Shown: positions 1 through 16,288 of the stretch, piece by piece
Layout: each line of letters starts with the position of its first letter
Position numbering within the stretch: position 1 is the stretch's first letter
Origin: Nitrososphaerota archaeon
Lineage (GTDB): Archaea > Thermoproteota > Nitrososphaeria > Nitrososphaerales > Nitrosopumilaceae
Direction: 5' to 3'
Length of the DNA stretch: 48,789 nucleotides
Assembly: GCA_016872015.1 (NCBI GenBank)
Contig: VHBK01000008.1
Span: 1 to 48,789, forward strand
Made by a program: the position numbers and the translations under genes
The notes under the pieces: model-generated
Databases searched by the model: none
The model's input: only the letters and a program-made list of their open reading frames with translations
What the model was told of the DNA's origin: nothing

Positions 1-618
1 ATCATCAAAGGATATAGTTGCATATGGCGTGATCAGTGAGGTCTGGTACACATAGTCCCTGATTTTAGATCCTGCCTTGGAATAGTCACCTTCTAGTGTG
101 ATGGAGACGTTTAGTCCTTTTTTGCCAGTCTCTTTTGTTGTGTGCTTTAGTATGACTGGCTTGTTTTTCTGAATGTCAAGCATCATTGAATATTCATGTG
201 AAGTCTGGCCATCAACTGAGCTAGACACCACAACTGGCTTGTTTGTGGTGATTTGCCCGTACAAAATTGCCATTGTAGCACCTAGGCCGAACATGCCTCG
301 TGCCTGCTTTAGGCCGAATTTAGAGCCATACAGTACAGTTCCAAACGCAAGTGGGATTTGCTTAGAGTCCATTCCTGGGCCATTGTCCTTAACAGTTAGG
401 ATGTATGGTTTTGGGTCTGGCTTTTCTGGGTCTACTGCTTGAATTATCAGTTTTACATCTGGCAGTATGCCTCTTTGGTCACAGGCGTCCAGTGCGTTTT
501 CTACAAATTCTCTAACAGCAGTATATAGTGAGCGGGTAGGATTTGAGAATCCGGCAAGGTCTCTATTTCTATAAAAGAACTCACTGGGTGAAATCTGACT
601 AAAGGTTTCCTTAGACAT
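1..618 (-). CDS. top6B: Type IIB DNA topoisomerase VI subunit B, N-terminal part (cut by window edge)
   Basis: The frame stays open from an ATG at 618 to the left edge (206 codons), so the C-terminal part is missing. Subunit B is the ATPase of topoisomerase VI, which passes one DNA duplex through another together with subunit A. The GHKL ATPase motifs are readable in order: an N-box (EFVENALDACD, about residues 38-48), DNGPGM (about 80) and a glycine-rich lid ending FGLGAT (about 110). The start overlaps the stop of the KH-protein gene by 8 nt, suggesting co-transcription with the ribosome-biogenesis genes upstream. Identification is firm; length and the transducer domain cannot be judged. 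Confidence 0.95.
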   Translation of the reverse strand, partial: MSKETFSQISPSEFFYRNRDLAGFSNPTRSLYTAVREFVENALDACDQRGILPDVKLIIQAVDPEKPDPKPYILTVKDNGPGMDSKQIPLAFGTVLYGSKFGLKQARGMFGLGATMAILYGQITTNKPVVVSSSVDGQTSHEYSMMLDIQKNKPVILKHTTKETGKKGLNVSITLEGDYSKAGSKIRDYVYQTSLITPYATISFDD

Positions 619-1177
619 CTTTGTTTTCCCACAATTGCATTCGCTCTATTTTTTGCCTTCTCTTGTTTGCTTCCAGCTTACCATAGACAGAACCATGTTT
701 GCTGCCAGCAGAAATTGACGATATTGCAGAGACTGCCAACTTGATCTGAATCGGTTCTCCAATTATTGAAACTGTTTTTCCATAAACGCAGATACTGGTA
801 TTGGTTAAATTTTCCATGTTTGCTCTTGCTCTACCTCCCTCTCCGATTATTCTTCCTTTTATCCTTTCAATTTGCTGCTGGGACTTGCCGGCAAAGTCTC
901 TTAGATCCATTACATGCAAAACATAATCTTCTCTCATTAGCTTAATTGCATTTTCTGGTGAGAATCCGCGGCCTATTGCGGTGACTAGTTCTACTGCCTT
1001 GAACGGCTGGATCTGATCTATTTGGCCATCCGTCACTATTTCTACTTCTCCTGTCTCGCTGTCTATTTCTAATTTAACAAAACATGTTTTTTCTATCTGG
1101 GTTTTGACTTTGCCTGATTTACCAATTAGTGCGCCTACTCGGTCCACTGGAATTCTTACTAGTTTATCAAAGCTCAT
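611..1177 (-). CDS. KH-domain RNA-binding protein, archaeal Dim2/Pno1-like
   Basis: This 188-residue protein has two KH-type regions. The first carries a GxxG loop in VGALIGKSGKVK (about residues 15-26), the second in IIGEGGRARANME (about 111-123). The length and layout match archaeal relatives of Pno1/Dim2, which bind the 3' end of small-subunit rRNA during ribosome maturation; that role is known for the family and inferred here. The start codon overlaps the stop of the RIO1 kinase gene in an ATGA arrangement, and RIO kinases act in the same late 40S/30S maturation step, so the two are probably translationally coupled. Confidence 0.9.
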   Translation of the reverse strand: MSFDKLVRIPVDRVGALIGKSGKVKTQIEKTCFVKLEIDSETGEVEIVTDGQIDQIQPFKAVELVTAIGRGFSPENAIKLMREDYVLHVMDLRDFAGKSQQQIERIKGRIIGEGGRARANMENLTNTSICVYGKTVSIIGEPIQIKLAVSAISSISAGSKHGSVYGKLEANKRRQKIERMQLWENKDV

Positions 1178-1968
1178 GATGTTATTGTGTGAAGGACATC
1201 AGCTGGATTTGTGACTGTTAGTCCTCTTTTTGCAAAAAAGTATGACATGTTTTTAATGTCTCTTTCAAGAAAGTTTTGAGCATTTGGGTGTATTGTGTCA
1301 ACTGCTGATCCAAAGTCAAAAACGACTAGGCCACCTTCTGTCTTGAATACGTTATACTCTGAAAGATCGCCATGGACTAGCTTTGCCTTTTTGTAGAGTT
1401 TTGTGATAAAATCAATGATTTGTGCATAGTCACTTTCGTTAACTTCGGTTTCATGCAGTGTTGGTGATGGGACTCCGGCTTTGCCGATAAACTCCATTGC
1501 AAGGACATTTTTTGAAACATGGAGCGGTCTTGCCACAGGTAGTTCATGGCGGATGCATTGCTTGAGGTTTTTGAACTCTTTTTGGGCCCAAAGATACACC
1601 ATGTTTCGTGTGCCCTTTTTGAGATGAGAAAATCTCGGATCACCCAGAATGTATGGTGCTCGTTTTTTAAAACTCGAAGTGGACGTCAGGTATACTTTGA
1701 GTGCCACATCCTTTCCCTCTGGGTCGACTGCCCAAAACAGGGCAGACTCTTTTCCTGCCTTGACTATGCCGTTTACGTATGAGATTATCTTGGCGTTTAT
1801 CATCTCATACATGGTAAACATTGTAGTCTTGTCAAGGACCTGATTGACTACTTTGTTGTTTTTGAATCCATCTTGGGGCTTGCGCCGTTTTTGCTTTGGA
1901 AAAATTTTTTCAAATTTAGAGTCATAGTCTTCTATTTCTTCTATTCCAGAAAAATCGTCTTCAGACAA
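1174..1968 (-). CDS. rio1: RIO1-type serine protein kinase
   Basis: The 264-residue protein has the reduced kinase core of the RIO family: an ATP-binding lysine in the VALKVYLT strand (about residue 91), the catalytic loop HGDLSEYNV (about 198-206) and the metal-binding FDFGSAV segment (about 217). Archaeal RIO1 is thought to act as an ATPase/kinase in small ribosomal subunit maturation. The start is TTG at 1968, 12 nt after the aIF1A stop, so this gene likely belongs to an aIF1A-RIO1-KH transcript. The acidic N-terminus (about residues 1-20) lies outside the kinase fold. Confidence 0.95.
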   Translation of the reverse strand: MSEDDFSGIEEIEDYDSKFEKIFPKQKRRKPQDGFKNNKVVNQVLDKTTMFTMYEMINAKIISYVNGIVKAGKESALFWAVDPEGKDVALKVYLTSTSSFKKRAPYILGDPRFSHLKKGTRNMVYLWAQKEFKNLKQCIRHELPVARPLHVSKNVLAMEFIGKAGVPSPTLHETEVNESDYAQIIDFITKLYKKAKLVHGDLSEYNVFKTEGGLVVFDFGSAVDTIHPNAQNFLERDIKNMSYFFAKRGLTVTNPADVLHTITS

Positions 1969-1980
1969 TTCTGTACATCG

Positions 1981-2292
1981 TTAGAATTCTTTTGGTAAAT
2001 GACCGTTGTTTTTGAGCCAGTCTACCTGAGATAACGTGAATCTCCAAGTAATGTCACCACGGTCGTCTTGCTTGAAGTCCCATGGCGCAATTATTACAAC
2101 GTCATTGTCTCTAATCCAGATTCTGCGCTTAAGTGTTCCACGAATTCTTCCTCTTCGGATTTTCTCATCGGTGCATTTTACAAGCACTTGATCACTTCCT
2201 AAAAGTTTGATGACCCTACCCAACATCTCACCTTGTTGTGGCAGCTGGATGTCTTTTAGCTCACTTTCGTTTAGAACTTTGCGCTTTCCCAA
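1981..2292 (-). CDS. Translation initiation factor aIF1A
   Basis: This 103-residue protein is an S1/OB-fold factor that binds the ribosomal A site during initiation. Typical aIF1A features are visible: LPQQGEMLGRVIKLLGSD near residues 18-35, the VKCTDEKIRRGRIRG strand region and RRIWIRDNDVVIIAPWDF. Length fits the family (about 100-115 residues). The start is a TTG at 2292; a TATA-like ATTATATA lies about 28 nt upstream on the minus strand, indicating a leaderless message. It heads the aIF1A-RIO1-KH-top6B run. Confidence 0.95.
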   Translation of the reverse strand: MGKRKVLNESELKDIQLPQQGEMLGRVIKLLGSDQVLVKCTDEKIRRGRIRGTLKRRIWIRDNDVVIIAPWDFKQDDRGDITWRFTLSQVDWLKNNGHLPKEF

Positions 2293-2330
2293 TGGTATTG
2301 GGTTGAAATTTTTGTATATAATTGTGTGTA

Positions 2331-2627
2331 TTACATTTTGAATACTATCAAAAATGGAATGCCATCTATTGTCTTGACTCCTTGTTGTGAGCCAACTTTT
2401 AGGCGAACCGACATTTGTATTGTGTTTGCACCAACCAGATTCAAAATTGAGCAGTTTTGTAGTAGTGTTTCTGCTTCCTCTTTTTCTACTAGTCTTTGGC
2501 CATAGTAGCTTTTGCTTATGTTGATTTGTAGTTTGCCGTTTTTGATTATTCTACCAAGCAAGTCCTCGTCGCACATGTTTAGCATGTTACTGCTTTGATA
2601 GTTTGATGTCTTGACGAAAAATCGCAT
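2331..2627 (-). CDS. DUF424 family protein
   Basis: A 98-residue protein resembling the archaeal DUF424 family: a short beta strand at the start (MRFFVKTSNYQ), a central IIKNGKLQINISKSYYGQRLV segment with the recurring YYG(Q/x)RLV pattern, and a hydrophobic C-terminal strand (PFLIVFKM). No function is established for the family that I can state. Its ATG overlaps the last base of the aIF2-beta stop codon, so it is almost certainly co-expressed with aIF2-beta, in keeping with a translation-related role (inference). Confidence 0.8.
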   Translation of the reverse strand: MRFFVKTSNYQSSNMLNMCDEDLLGRIIKNGKLQINISKSYYGQRLVEKEEAETLLQNCSILNLVGANTIQMSVRLKVGSQQGVKTIDGIPFLIVFKM

Positions 2628-3049
2628 TATGCGTATTTACCTTTGAGTGATGATTTTGCACCGCATGCCTCACATATCAAAAAGGTGATTCTGTTTTCTC
2701 TCTCTATTTTGGTATCTGGGCTCTTGCAAGTTGGGCATTCAAGATAATCCTTGACGTAAATGTTAAGCAGATTCACAAAGTCGTGCGGCTCACGTCTTCC
2801 AACAAAGATTGCCTTGTCCCCGCTTCGCTCAGCAGGTGTTGCAAATTCCTTTGCCAGATATTGTAGGACCTTGTCCGGGTCGCGTCTTAGCTTTTTTGCA
2901 AAATCCATGAAATTGTGCAATATAGTGCGTTGTCCCTCCCACATCACATTGGGTGATGGAAGCTCAAACCTCTCCCCAGTATCAGTCTGTTTTTCAGAAA
3001 TCTTGTCTTGGATTCGCTTTAGGAGCTTTTCATAGTCTGCCTTAGTCAA
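2627..3049 (-). CDS. Translation initiation factor aIF2 subunit beta
   Basis: This 140-residue protein matches aIF2-beta: an N-terminal helix, a central region (FELPSPNVMWEGQRTILHNF, about residues 28-47), and a C-terminal C4 zinc ribbon with CPTC (about 114-117) and CEAC (about 131-134). The beta subunit is part of the heterotrimer that brings initiator tRNA to the small subunit. The start is a TTG at 3049. A CATATAGG box sits about 30 nt upstream on the minus strand. The gene begins the DUF424-containing operon. Confidence 0.95.
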   Translation of the reverse strand: MTKADYEKLLKRIQDKISEKQTDTGERFELPSPNVMWEGQRTILHNFMDFAKKLRRDPDKVLQYLAKEFATPAERSGDKAIFVGRREPHDFVNLLNIYVKDYLECPTCKSPDTKIERENRITFLICEACGAKSSLKGKYA

Positions 3050-11157: not shown

Positions 11158-11688
11158 TTGTACTCATTGAATGTTCTAGTTACTTGTGCAAGACACTTTG
11201 AGGGTGAAACTACAGACGAGATAAAAGAATTATTGTCTGAGCTTGGCGACGATAATCCCCAGATTTCCATGACAGAGTTTTCCGGGATTTTGTATGTGGA
11301 TACTACTTCAAGCCCGTTAGATCTGATAAAGAAAATCCGGGAAAAGCTGGAAGACGAGCCATGGTCTATTCGATATACAATGCGCGCAATCCCAATATTT
11401 GCAGTAACAAAGACGGATGTGACAGAAATTGTAGATACTGCAATGAAACAATCAGAAAAAATTGCACAAGGCCAGACATATCGCATAACAGTAGAGAAAA
11501 GAAATTCTGAGATTTCATCTGGTGAAATAATCAGTCAAATAGCAAATAAAATTCCAAACAGGGTCTCACTTGAAAAATACGACTGGATTGTTCTAGTCGA
11601 GATTTTGGGTGTAATTACTGGCGTATCTGTACTCAGAGACGAGGATGTTTTGAGCATACAGCGAGAAAAGCGCGGCTCACTGGAATAG
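11158..11688 (+). CDS. THUMP-domain protein (Tan1-like)
   Basis: The 176-residue protein starts at TTG 11158, with a CTAAATATG box about 20-25 nt upstream. The first half (LNVLVTCARHFEGETTDEIKELLSEL) is typical of the N-terminal region of archaeal THUMP proteins. The second (about residues 60-170) includes IRYTMRAIPIFAVTKTD, YRITVEKRNSEISS and IGVSVLRDEDVLSI-like strands of the THUMP RNA-binding fold. Tan1-type proteins assist tRNA acetylation at C12, so a tRNA-modification role is likely but inferred. It converges with, and overlaps by 12 nt, the Cgi121 fusion gene. Confidence 0.85.
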   Translation: MYSLNVLVTCARHFEGETTDEIKELLSELGDDNPQISMTEFSGILYVDTTSSPLDLIKKIREKLEDEPWSIRYTMRAIPIFAVTKTDVTEIVDTAMKQSEKIAQGQTYRITVEKRNSEISSGEIISQIANKIPNRVSLEKYDWIVLVEILGVITGVSVLRDEDVLSIQREKRGSLE

Positions 11689-12447
11689 TACTGCTGCCTT
11701 TTCTACTACCAAGTCTTCAAGTGGATTCTTGGAATCAATTACACCCAGATGCTTTTTTGTTATCTTGAATTGTTTTTGAATATGTGAAATATTCTTGGAA
11801 TAATTCACATCTACCAAGTGTTCTTCGAGATGTGAGTGCAGTCTCTCAAGATGAGACTTTGGGCCTAGTGCAACTATGGTAAATGTGTCTGTTTTCTCAA
11901 TGCCTACTAGATTTATTGCAGCTAGGATCTGCGTTGTTGCCGCAAATCTAAGCAAGATGTCTGTCTCGAATTTTTTTGATAATAACAGGTTGTTCTTTTT
12001 TGCATACAGTGATACGCCTAGTATTTTTTTGATATGCAGTATGCTTGCTATTTCCTTTGAAGAGATTCCCTCCATTGTTATGTATGGGAATTTTTTTCTC
12101 AATGCACTCAGATAGTCATAGTTTTTGCCCTTTTTGTTTTTGACATTGAACATCTCGACATTTTTTGATTGTATGATAAACTGGATTCTTGAGCCGCCAT
12201 GTATTACCGGTATTACACTCACTATATCTCCCGAGTGCAGTATTGTGTCATGGCCTTGCAGTGCAGACGAGTCTGCCCCATTTACCGCAATTAGGACATT
12301 TTTGGTGTCTAGATCCAGTGTGTTTGCCGGCTTTATCGATAAGAGATAATCTAATAATTTTGAAATGGAAACATTGTCAAGCTCTGCCTGAATTAGGTCC
12401 TTGCCAAACGACTTTTTTGCACCACCTAAGAGCTTGATTGTAATCAT
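11677..12447 (-). CDS. Fusion of a MoaD/ThiS-like ubiquitin-fold domain and KEOPS subunit Cgi121
   Basis: Residues 1-84 form a beta-grasp domain like MoaD, ThiS or archaeal SAMP: MITIKLLGGAKKSFG, then a VLIAVNGADSS strand, ending SVIPVIHGG. The rest (about 86-256) resembles Cgi121, the KEOPS subunit that recruits tRNA for t6A synthesis. Its core is KKFETDILLRFAATTQILAA (about 157-176), followed by a hydrophobic IVALGP strand and a C-terminal VEKAAVLF helix. The frame is continuous. The Gly-Gly, which is C-terminal in free sulfur carriers and modifiers, is internal here and directly precedes the Cgi121 part. The fusion could simply scaffold, or could be processed. The ATG follows a CTTAAGC box by about 28 nt. 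Confidence 0.82.
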   Translation of the reverse strand: MITIKLLGGAKKSFGKDLIQAELDNVSISKLLDYLLSIKPANTLDLDTKNVLIAVNGADSSALQGHDTILHSGDIVSVIPVIHGGSRIQFIIQSKNVEMFNVKNKKGKNYDYLSALRKKFPYITMEGISSKEIASILHIKKILGVSLYAKKNNLLLSKKFETDILLRFAATTQILAAINLVGIEKTDTFTIVALGPKSHLERLHSHLEEHLVDVNYSKNISHIQKQFKITKKHLGVIDSKNPLEDLVVEKAAVLFQ

Positions 12448-12471: not shown

Positions 12472-12804
12472 TTAAGATTCTTCGCCGGACTCTATTGTGA
12501 TTTCTTGAGGAATCTCGGATTCTTGTGTTTCTGATTCTGGTATGGTTTCCTCTTCAGCTGCTTCTACTTGTGTTTCTTCAACTTCTTCTAATTCTTCCTC
12601 TTCAACTGGTGCTTCCTTTGATGAGAGATAGTCTTTTTCACGCTTGAGAAGCTTTGTGATGTAGCCGGCCATCTCGTTTTTGAGGCCTTTAGAGCGTACA
12701 ACTGCTAGTTGGTCTAGAATTTTTTTATTGTCTGCAAAGTCTACTGAGAACTTGTCTTTGTGTTGATCAAGGACTTGCATTGAGAGTCTCTTTATTCTAT
12801 CCAC
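12472..12804 (-). CDS. rps17e: 30S ribosomal protein S17e with acidic C-terminal extension
   Basis: The first about 65 residues match S17e: MDRIKRLSMQVLDQHKDKFS, then DFADNKKILDQL and the conserved KGLKNEMAGYITKLLKRE. The remaining about 45 residues are a Glu-rich tail (EEEELEEVEETQVEAAEEE) that most archaeal S17e proteins lack, making this protein 110 rather than about 65-80 residues long. The start is GTG at 12804, with an ATAATATA box ending about 22 nt upstream. That box lies just inside the 3' end of the upstream TatD gene. Confidence 0.93.
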   Translation of the reverse strand: MDRIKRLSMQVLDQHKDKFSVDFADNKKILDQLAVVRSKGLKNEMAGYITKLLKREKDYLSSKEAPVEEEELEEVEETQVEAAEEETIPESETQESEIPQEITIESGEES

Positions 12805-12834: not shown

Positions 12835-13584
12835 CTATATTCCCAGATATTGTTTTGAATTTGTTTCCAGCATATCTTCAGCCTCATTGTATGATATTCC
12901 AAGTATTTTCGATATGCAAAACACTACACTTGGAATAAAGCTTGGATGAGCGGACTTCATATCAAAGCAGCGAGAAAATCTTACTGGTCCGTCTGTTTCT
13001 ACTAGGATTTTGTCTTTGTTTGTAAGAGAGATCAGAACTTGCTTGTCCTGCGAATACACCGATACTGGGCCATAGGAAACATAACATCCAAGATCCATTG
13101 CTTGGCCTAGCTGCTTTTTGCTTCCTGCAAACCAGTGCAGCAAGAATCCAGGAATTTTGTAAGACGGCATGATTTGAAATATTTCATCCAGTGTTGCGCG
13201 CGAATGTACTGATACTGGTTTGTGGTACTTTTCTGCCATTTCTAGTAGTTTAGTGAAAACCTGTTTTTGCCTTGCAAAGTCTTCATCAGTTTTGGTGTAG
13301 GTCTTATCAAGTCCTATCTCCCCTATTCCGGAGAGTGTTTTTGCGTTTTGCTCAATTAGTGATGTCATCGAATCCAGATCATCTGATGCCTTTTCTGGGT
13401 GAATCCCAATGAACGGTAGGACGTGGTTGCTTTTTTTGGCAAGATTTAGTGTGACATTAGACGACTGGACATCCATTGATACTGCGCATGTTTTGATGCC
13501 GATTTGGTGCATCGAGTTGATTACTAAGCCTATTTCGCTTTCATACTCTGGATCCGATAGGTGAATATGCGCATCATAGAGCAT
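12835..13584 (-). CDS. TatD family metal-dependent DNase
   Basis: The product is a TIM-barrel hydrolase of about 249 residues. Metal ligands are in order: DAHIHLSD (about 4-11), HPEKASDD (about 62), GEIGLDKTY (about 86), SVHSR (about 126), LHWFAG (about 151) and ETDGPV (about 200). The open frame extends to 13629, but ATG 13584 directly precedes the metal motif as in relatives, and CTTAAGTATA sits 24-33 nt before it, so the shorter start is favoured. TatD enzymes degrade DNA or repair 3' ends; the physiological role here is unknown. Confidence 0.92.
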   Translation of the reverse strand: MLYDAHIHLSDPEYESEIGLVINSMHQIGIKTCAVSMDVQSSNVTLNLAKKSNHVLPFIGIHPEKASDDLDSMTSLIEQNAKTLSGIGEIGLDKTYTKTDEDFARQKQVFTKLLEMAEKYHKPVSVHSRATLDEIFQIMPSYKIPGFLLHWFAGSKKQLGQAMDLGCYVSYGPVSVYSQDKQVLISLTNKDKILVETDGPVRFSRCFDMKSAHPSFIPSVVFCISKILGISYNEAEDMLETNSKQYLGI

Positions 13585-13688
13585 GGTTTTTGGGAAATTT
13601 TCTGTATACTTAAGTGTGCAGAAATCCATTAGTGTGTGGAATTTTTTAGCTCATAATCCTTTATCATACAAAATGGTCAAAATTTGAT

Positions 13689-14533: not shown

Positions 14534-16288
14534 ATGGCAGAGAGAAGTAATGGCCTGCTAGAATACATTCCAGGCTCGCAGTCATTGCTGATTCAAAAAA
14601 AGGCAGAGCAGCCACTAGAGGGATTTTCTGAGAACATCAAAGACAGCATAATAGAATATGCCGAAAGTGGAAAAAGCGACGTAGAAAAAGGCTACAATTT
14701 CCTGCACTGGGTTTTGACTAGGGTGTACGAGGCAACAGAAGACGATGCTGCAGATTCGATTGTCGATGGTGCAAACGATCTTGGAATTGACGCTTATTTG
14801 CCGGTTGATTTTTCAGACAACAAAATAAGATTATTCCAGTCAAAATATGGCACTGCCCATTCTGAGGAGGCAATTGCCAAATTCAAAGAAGACGTCAGAA
14901 GACTACTAACCAAAGACATTACCAAGATGAGACCTGAGCTTGCAAACTTAGTAACAAAGATCCAAGAAAAAAACCTCAAAGTCGAATGCTGCTATGTCAC
15001 AAATCAGCCAGTAAACTATGACGGCGATGATACACTAGAGATAATTGGTTTGGATAAAATTGTCAAGTCTCTCTGGGATCGAATAAAAAAGCCTGCAGCA
15101 GGAAAAAAATCCAAGATACGGCTAGAAGAGAGAATTCGCTACAAAAACACCGTAGTCGGCATACTAAAGCTTCGAGAGCTGACAGACTTTGTTATCAAAA
15201 ACAGGGACTATGTCTTTGAGTCAAACATCAGGCAGTGGATGCAGTTCAAGACAAACGTAAACAAGGGAATTCGGGACACACTCCAAAACTCTCCTGACAA
15301 ATTCTTTTACTATAACAATGGAATTACTATAGTAGTTAGCAATTTTGAAGAGCTGGAAGACAACACGCTAGTGTTGCATGCACCACAAATAGTCAACGGC
15401 GCTCAAACATCAAACTCTATTTTAGATCATGCCAAGAGAACTAACAATCTAGATGGTAGCATCACAGTTACCATCATACGAGCAGATGATGAGCTGGACC
15501 AAAATAATATCACAAAATACAGAAACTCGCAAAATTCCGTTCGAGGAAAAGACCTAGTATCGCTGATGGACTTTCACAAGTCTGTAAAATCCCAGCTTGA
15601 AAACCACGGATATTTTTACGAAATACAGGCAGGCTCGTTTGACTCCAAGACAAAGTCGCAGCAAGGCGAATTCAAGGGAGATGCCACATACAACAGGTAC
15701 CTTCCCGATAATCACAAAAAAGTAATTGTTGCCAAAGACGCAATACAAGCTTTGGTTGCAGGAATTGAGCAGAGGCCAACTGAATCATACAGCTCGCCTG
15801 CACAGTTTTTGCCTCGCGGAAGCAAGTACGATGATGTATTCAATGAAAATCTAAAGGACGACTATAGGTTGCTCATCTATCCATATTTGGTAAAAGAATT
15901 TGCTAAAAAATCACTAGGCTATGGAAAACGCGGAGGGCACAAAACCAAACGATATGCGACATTGTTTTTTGTTGCAGTGTATTTTAGAATAATTCACAAA
16001 AGCATCCTCAGTACAAAGGGGGATTTCAAAGAAGACATTGCCAAAGTAGAGCCAATCTTTAAGAGCTCCAAGCTCAATGAGCGCATCCTCAAACTAACAG
16101 ACGGTGTTGTGACAAGATTCCTCGAAGATACCGTAGTCGAAGACGAAATAGAGCTGGCAAACACCAAGCACAATTTCTTTTCCCATCACGTATGGAATGA
16201 GGCAATGTTGCGCGTAGTAGACAAGAAAATACGCCAAGAGGAAGAGGAAATCGAAAGTATTAGAAAACTAGTCAACAGTTTATTGTAA
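14534..16288 (+). CDS. AIPR-family protein with PD-(D/E)XK-like N-terminal segment
   Basis: The 584-residue protein has the AIPR (abortive infection phage resistance) signature: KFFYYNNGITIVVSNFEE (about 256-273) followed by PQIVNGAQTSNSI (about 284-296). The N-terminal part contains NDLGIDAYLPVDFSD and, after the next strand, LFQSKYG (about 81-106), the D...QxK layout of Mrr-like nuclease cores. The C-terminal half is mostly helical. AIPR proteins are tied to phage defence in bacteria; here no partner methylase or helicase is adjacent, so it appears to stand alone. The TTCTAAAGCC element before the ATG is a weak promoter. Confidence 0.85.
   Translation: MAERSNGLLEYIPGSQSLLIQKKAEQPLEGFSENIKDSIIEYAESGKSDVEKGYNFLHWVLTRVYEATEDDAADSIVDGANDLGIDAYLPVDFSDNKIRLFQSKYGTAHSEEAIAKFKEDVRRLLTKDITKMRPELANLVTKIQEKNLKVECCYVTNQPVNYDGDDTLEIIGLDKIVKSLWDRIKKPAAGKKSKIRLEERIRYKNTVVGILKLRELTDFVIKNRDYVFESNIRQWMQFKTNVNKGIRDTLQNSPDKFFYYNNGITIVVSNFEELEDNTLVLHAPQIVNGAQTSNSILDHAKRTNNLDGSITVTIIRADDELDQNNITKYRNSQNSVRGKDLVSLMDFHKSVKSQLENHGYFYEIQAGSFDSKTKSQQGEFKGDATYNRYLPDNHKKVIVAKDAIQALVAGIEQRPTESYSSPAQFLPRGSKYDDVFNENLKDDYRLLIYPYLVKEFAKKSLGYGKRGGHKTKRYATLFFVAVYFRIIHKSILSTKGDFKEDIAKVEPIFKSSKLNERILKLTDGVVTRFLEDTVVEDEIELANTKHNFFSHHVWNEAMLRVVDKKIRQEEEEIESIRKLVNSLL

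Follow-up and report, generated by a model that had tools for sequence, protein, structure and literature searches.

The window, by which we mean the whole analysed stretch of 48,789 nucleotides from a Nitrososphaerota archaeon (contig VHBK01000008.1), carries on its minus strand an intact open reading frame of 256 amino acids with an ATG start. Judged by its profile matches, this gene joins a Urm1-like ubiquitin-like (Ubl) domain to the KEOPS subunit Cgi121. An initial annotation had placed it at 11677-12447, which is exact, and had described it as a MoaD/ThiS/SAMP-type beta-grasp domain followed by Cgi121, with which we agree: both Pfam matches lie over their cut-offs, and both halves match solved structures by profile. 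The locus comprises the following features.

11158..11688, plus strand: THUMP-domain protein (Pfam THUMP, E 2.4e-6), convergent with the fusion and overlapping it by 12 nt
11677..12447, minus strand: Ubl-Cgi121 fusion open reading frame, 256 aa (Pfam, NCBIfam, homologue alignment)
11680..12192, minus strand: Cgi121 domain, residues 86-256 (Pfam CGI-121; profile match to 2k8y/3enh/7kjt; residue mapping)
12193..12201, minus strand: codons of His83-Gly84-Gly85, with the putative cleavage point right behind Gly85, at the boundary of window bases 12193 and 12192 (HGG in 91/91 fused homologues)
12193..12447, minus strand: Urm1/ThiS-type beta-grasp domain, residues 1-85 (Pfam ThiS; profile match to Urm1/SAMP structures)
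12472..12804, minus strand: ribosomal protein S17e, 24 nt upstream of the fusion and co-directional (Pfam, E 1.3e-16)
12835..13629, minus strand: TatD-family nuclease, upstream of the fusion and co-directional (Pfam, E 5e-51)

The assignment of the two domains draws on several kinds of profile. Namely, Pfam ThiS matches residues 7-85 at E 3e-8, over its cut-off, Pfam CGI-121 matches residues 126-252 at E 2.7e-8 (34.5 bits against a cut-off of 25), and the NCBIfam equivalog "KEOPS complex subunit Cgi121" (NF011465) matches the fusion at E 2.1e-28 (99.3 bits against a cut-off of 40). With a profile of 19 relatives, the first half resembles the solved Urm1/SAMP-type structures 4wwm, 2k9x, 2ax5 and 2g1e, and the second half the solved Cgi121/TPRKB structures 1zd0, 3enp, 2k8y, 3enh and 7kjt. 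AlphaFold, run on three input sequences, gave an uninformative model of the whole fusion (pLDDT 32) and a low-confidence model of the Ubl half (pLDDT 54), with which Foldseek returned no significant match, the best being 1v8c, a MoaD-related protein, at E 1.4. Since these predicted structures are too weak, the fold assignments of both halves rest on the sequence profiles. The best profile match to the Ubl half, 4wwm, is an archaeal Urm1, and the window's domain shares its HGG tail, as it does that of Saccharolobus Urm1 (PMC12625751), the difference being that archaeal Urm1 is a free protein, whereas here the Ubl domain is fused.

Both halves keep conserved residues outside this tail, among them N56, D59, S60 and D74 in the Ubl half and R117, R167, Q173, I174 and E249 in the Cgi121 half of the fused homologues. 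In mjCgi121, Gln71-Ile72 touch the CCA tail of tRNA (PMC7718258). With mjCgi121 numbered by its PDB sequence, this pair maps to Q173-I174 of the fusion, invariant in 91/91 fused homologues, while Lys56 corresponds to K158 and Met60 to T162, i.e. a Thr instead of a Met. Because the CCA-contacting pair is invariant, the second half looks like a functional, tRNA-binding Cgi121, and it differs from the solved Cgi121/TPRKB proteins (2k8y/3enh/7kjt; 1zd0), with which it shares the profile match and the Gln-Ile pair, in carrying an N-terminal Ubl domain. The window's genome also encodes Kae1 (TIGR03722, E 2e-124) and two Pcc1-type genes. A profile search of this genome found no second Cgi121, i.e. 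not the separate intact copy that the initial annotation had regarded as contrary to its reading.

That said, the fusion itself is already known, although the initial annotation had implied its novelty. Makarova & Koonin described it in 2010 as conserved in all then-sequenced Thaumarchaea, beside S17e, and proposed for it KEOPS regulation by SAMPylation, or a coordinated function (PMC2948915). The same paper noted a Ubl-E1 fusion in Thaumarchaeota and a Ubl gene adjoining S17 in Sulfolobales. The window's gene has the same domain combination and the same S17e neighbour, with no architectural difference. A keyword search of the text of PMC2948915 turned up no passage on cutting the Ubl-Cgi121 fusion, and we found no follow-up on the thaumarchaeal Ubl-KEOPS fusion since 2010 in the literature searched. 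What is new here is the invariance of the HGG motif, together with the comparison of fused and split genes, as comparative evidence that points to cleavage.

Our comparison covers 150 genomes of the class, in which the window's family (f1) contributes 90 loci. The fusion, whose distribution the initial annotation had proposed to follow, is full-length in 88/90 of these loci and also in G106, G129 and G133, which belong to another family, while two genomes of the class (G047, G032) have shorter fused frames. A scan of genome contigs with the single protein as query returned two close relatives only, and a scan of viral contigs found no relatives of the fusion. The neighbourhood is conserved as well: S17e lies on the same strand and in the same neighbourhood as the fusion in 87/90 family loci, as it does at the majority of outgroup loci, and the TatD nuclease is on the fusion's strand in 83/90. 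The THUMP gene, correctly reported at the outset as convergent and overlapping, is convergent in 90/90 family loci, with an overlap of 8-15 nt in 86/90 (12 nt in the window, 11677-11688).

At the junction between the two halves of the window's fusion, Gly85 directly abuts the Cgi121 part, whose first residue is Ser86; the absence of a linker had thus been rightly noted. Cleavage had been placed "after Gly84", but the di-glycine is Gly84-Gly85, so the cut would fall after Gly85, before Ser86. Every one of the 91 fused homologues keeps H83-G84-G85 unchanged. At the same time, their reading frames draw on all four Gly codons for the two glycines, and almost every pairing occurs; in other words, these sites have changed often in the DNA, with the protein unchanged. 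The stretch right after HGG is variable in sequence, with length differences of as many as about 6 residues, and at the first position past the motif (P1') 44 of the 91 have Ser, 27 Ala and 6 Thr. A fixed HGG, a variable stretch behind it and split versions that end at it make up the pattern that a processing site predicts, and for which a plain hinge would predict otherwise. We also considered, and rejected, an internal start that would yield free Cgi121 as a general feature: an in-frame ATG, GTG or TTG within 15 codons past HGG is present in only 32/91 fused genes, and the window's fusion, with GGCGGC at its Gly-Gly, has by eye no ATG before residue 99.

Other relatives have the two parts as adjacent separate genes (e.g. 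G135, G118, G079, G074 and G134). Elsewhere, Cgi121 does not adjoin the separate Ubl gene, which is followed instead by a KH-domain-like protein, as read by eye (e.g. G067, G090 and G111), or by another gene (e.g. G005, G013, G017 and G001). One genus, g22, holds both states in one gene neighbourhood, fused in G106, G129 and G133 and split in G135 and G118. The split Ubl genes in the S17e/TatD context, several of which have Cgi121 next, mostly end exactly at HGG-stop (G079, G135, G118, G004, G067, G090, G137, G134, G111, G112, G124, G149, G097 and others). Exceptions are genus g17 of family f2, where HGGC is followed by at least one further residue, and two genomes whose Ubl genes end in HGGS (G069) and HGGMVGV (G109). 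As a separate observation, the f2 Ubl genes at loci L115-L118 end in HGGC(L/I) or HGGCLRYDGEVE, and in this respect resemble short pro-peptides, which would have to be trimmed as well.

Two splits lie within the window's family. In G028, which belongs to the window's genus, a TGA stands one codon past HGG and the Cgi121 frame follows directly, and in G103 the split is consistent with a single base inserted into a run of A. These may be real or may be single-base sequencing faults, and the case for cleavage does not rest on them. At the G028 locus (L010), a Shine-Dalgarno-like GGAGGT arises from the HGG codons (CATGGAGGT) and stands a few bases 5' of the TTG that heads the Cgi121 frame.

Would such a lineage have a modifier if its fusion were never cut? 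Apart from the fusion, a profile search of the window's genome found no second ThiS domain. The 24 single-contig genomes of the family essentially always have two ThiS/MoaD domains (PF02597 ThiS; TIGR01687 MoaD_arch), one in the fusion and one in a Ubl-E1 protein, and both carry an internal Gly-Gly. Namely, the family's E1 is about 440 aa long, and its N-terminal Ubl ends in AVAGG directly before the E1 domain (...AVAGG-SELSSKEIDRYSRQ...). At the relatives' E1 loci (L136-L153), the Ubl-E1 layout is the same as that of Ubl-Cgi121. No free modifier was found in these 24 genomes with PF02597 and TIGR01687, the main possible exception being a weak 68-aa candidate in G070 (TIGR01687, E 0.02); since TIGR01687 scores the fusion's own Ubl as weakly as 0.025, a strongly divergent modifier might escape this search. 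If these two domains are all there is, only a cut would give either of them a free C-terminal glycine, and the canonical use of either Ubl would need its release.

Of the partners that the initial annotation had wished to see, both exist, the JAMM protease in the window's own genome and the E1 among its relatives. In particular, E1 is found in 24/24 single-contig family genomes, including G025 of the window's own genus, although the window's own assembly, fragmented into 64 contigs, yielded none. About 16 family genomes without a full E1 keep HGG nevertheless. We considered E1 loss as a sign of an E1-independent role of HGG and rejected it, because these absences occur only in multi-contig assemblies and are distributed over the tree no differently from shuffled labels (15 changes, shuffle mean 15.0), the one in G114 being simply a gene cut by a contig edge. 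As for proteases, the window's genome encodes two JAMM proteins with an intact H-x-H-x7-S-x2-D motif, HSHPHSEASPSSTD and HSHPSGSAEPSVTD, the first of which has a haloarchaeal desampylase model as its best match (E 2e-18, short of the curated cut-off). JAMM proteins occur in 143/150 genomes of the class, and, being nearly universal, do not discriminate by their presence.

There are precedents for cutting such proteins. MoaX, the MoaD-MoaE fusion of Mycobacterium tuberculosis, is cut between Gly82 and Ser83, and the cut is required for activity (PMC4326299). Like the window's protein, MoaX has an N-terminal beta-grasp carrier fused directly to its partner across a Gly-Gly-Ser junction; unlike it, the partner is the molybdopterin synthase MoaE, not a KEOPS subunit, and the cut is proven for MoaX and predicted for Ubl-Cgi121. 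In vitro, HvJAMM1 of Haloferax volcanii severs a linear SAMP1-MoaE fusion exactly behind the Gly-Gly; it also cleaves this fusion in vivo, and no cleavage was detected with the Gly-Gly deleted (PMC4443979). Here, too, a linear Ubl-enzyme fusion is cut by an archaeal JAMM, of which the window's genome has a desampylase-like representative, the differences being that the Haloferax fusion was made ectopically and that its partner is MoaE rather than Cgi121. What is more, CsJAMM of Caldiarchaeum cuts CsSAMP precursors (PMC6043591).

Taken together, the initial observation of the fusion is confirmed, and its interpretation is partly supported. The idea that the Gly-Gly serves as a cleavage site has good comparative support in the invariant HGG, the split genes that stop at it, the lack of a free modifier among the single-contig family genomes searched, the JAMM proteins and the precedents; these suggest release by cleavage, and from them we infer the cut itself. 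We consider it probable that the fusion is a precursor and that cleavage behind Gly85 yields a free modifier and a free Cgi121, with the protease and the role of the modifier as putative as the cut. Namely, a Urm1/SAMP-type modifier would be translated as the N-terminus of the KEOPS subunit, and a desampylase-type JAMM metalloprotease would cut the peptide bond after Gly85 post-translationally. One product would be a modifier of 85 residues ending in the Gly-Gly that E1 requires for adenylation, to be used as a sulfur carrier and/or a protein modifier. The other, Cgi121, would join Kae1-Bud32-Pcc1 and grip the CCA tail of the tRNA for the synthesis of t6A. Both products would depend on a single mRNA through the fusion, which may in addition gate KEOPS or the supply of modifier.

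Some points count against this reading: the near-universal JAMM proteins do not discriminate, the retention of the fusion in 88/90 family loci could also be explained by a stable tether, and, as the window's assembly shows no E1, the freed modifier could have no activator. HGG might, moreover, be kept for a non-covalent contact. One could accordingly picture a stable two-domain protein, in which the Urm1-like domain stays on Cgi121 within KEOPS as a docking or regulatory module in cis, its internal HGG making a specific contact and never becoming a C-terminus; the Ubl domain may, for example, bring CCA-bound tRNA to thiolation enzymes or to E1. The fusion's retention, which extends to part of genus g22, fits this picture, as do the conserved residues that both halves keep outside HGG and the PP-loop thiolase family in 149/150 genomes of the class. 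We nevertheless find it unlikely. A mere hinge would not need the exact preservation of HGG, and the picture explains neither the invariance of HGG beside a stretch of variable length nor the exact stop of the separate homologues at that motif, both of which count for cleavage; it would also leave the closed genomes without a modifier that can be activated at its C-terminus.

A different proposal accepts the cut and shifts its purpose. Namely, the Ubl domain could block or alter Cgi121, and a JAMM cut would then turn t6A synthesis on, the freed Ubl being of little use. This has a parallel in MoaE, which is inhibited by covalent SAMP1 and relieved by HvJAMM1 (PMC4443979), and recalls the regulation of KEOPS by sampylation proposed in 2010 (PMC2948915). 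However, the split relatives make a free Ubl with a mature HGG end, which implies that its own function is kept, and we consider this proposal quite improbable. Finally, the adjacent separate genes of several relatives might raise the suspicion that two neighbouring genes were merged by assembly or gene calling. The same uninterrupted frame in 88 family assemblies, many of them single-contig, and the independent publication of the fusion from other genomes (PMC2948915) refute this, and we give it practically no weight.

Returning to the processed precursor, if it is correct, the Urm1-like modifier and the KEOPS subunit that recruits tRNA would both come from one polypeptide, and two pathways that run separately elsewhere would be obligately linked. 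A broader version, which we put forward tentatively as plausible but a little short of probable, is that in the family, whose members are ammonia-oxidiser-like archaea, every Urm1/SAMP-type modifier is made only as a precursor, Ubl-Cgi121 or Ubl-E1. JAMM cleavage would then be obligatory and would couple the supply of modifier to that of the tRNA-binding subunit, linking modifier or sulfur chemistry with t6A formation. The predicted tryptic peptide would end in ...VIPVIHGGSR in the uncut protein and in ...VIPVIHGG in the cut one.

Elsewhere in the window, positions 14534-16288 on the plus strand encode an AIPR-family protein (Pfam, E 6e-56) that also matches the PADLOC AbiU model (E 1.4e-48) and is a possible phage-defence gene, and positions 611-3049 on the minus strand hold, consecutively, a KH-domain PNO1/KRR1-like protein, a RIO1 kinase and an eIF2-beta/eIF5-domain protein, i.e. 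a translation and ribosome-assembly cluster.
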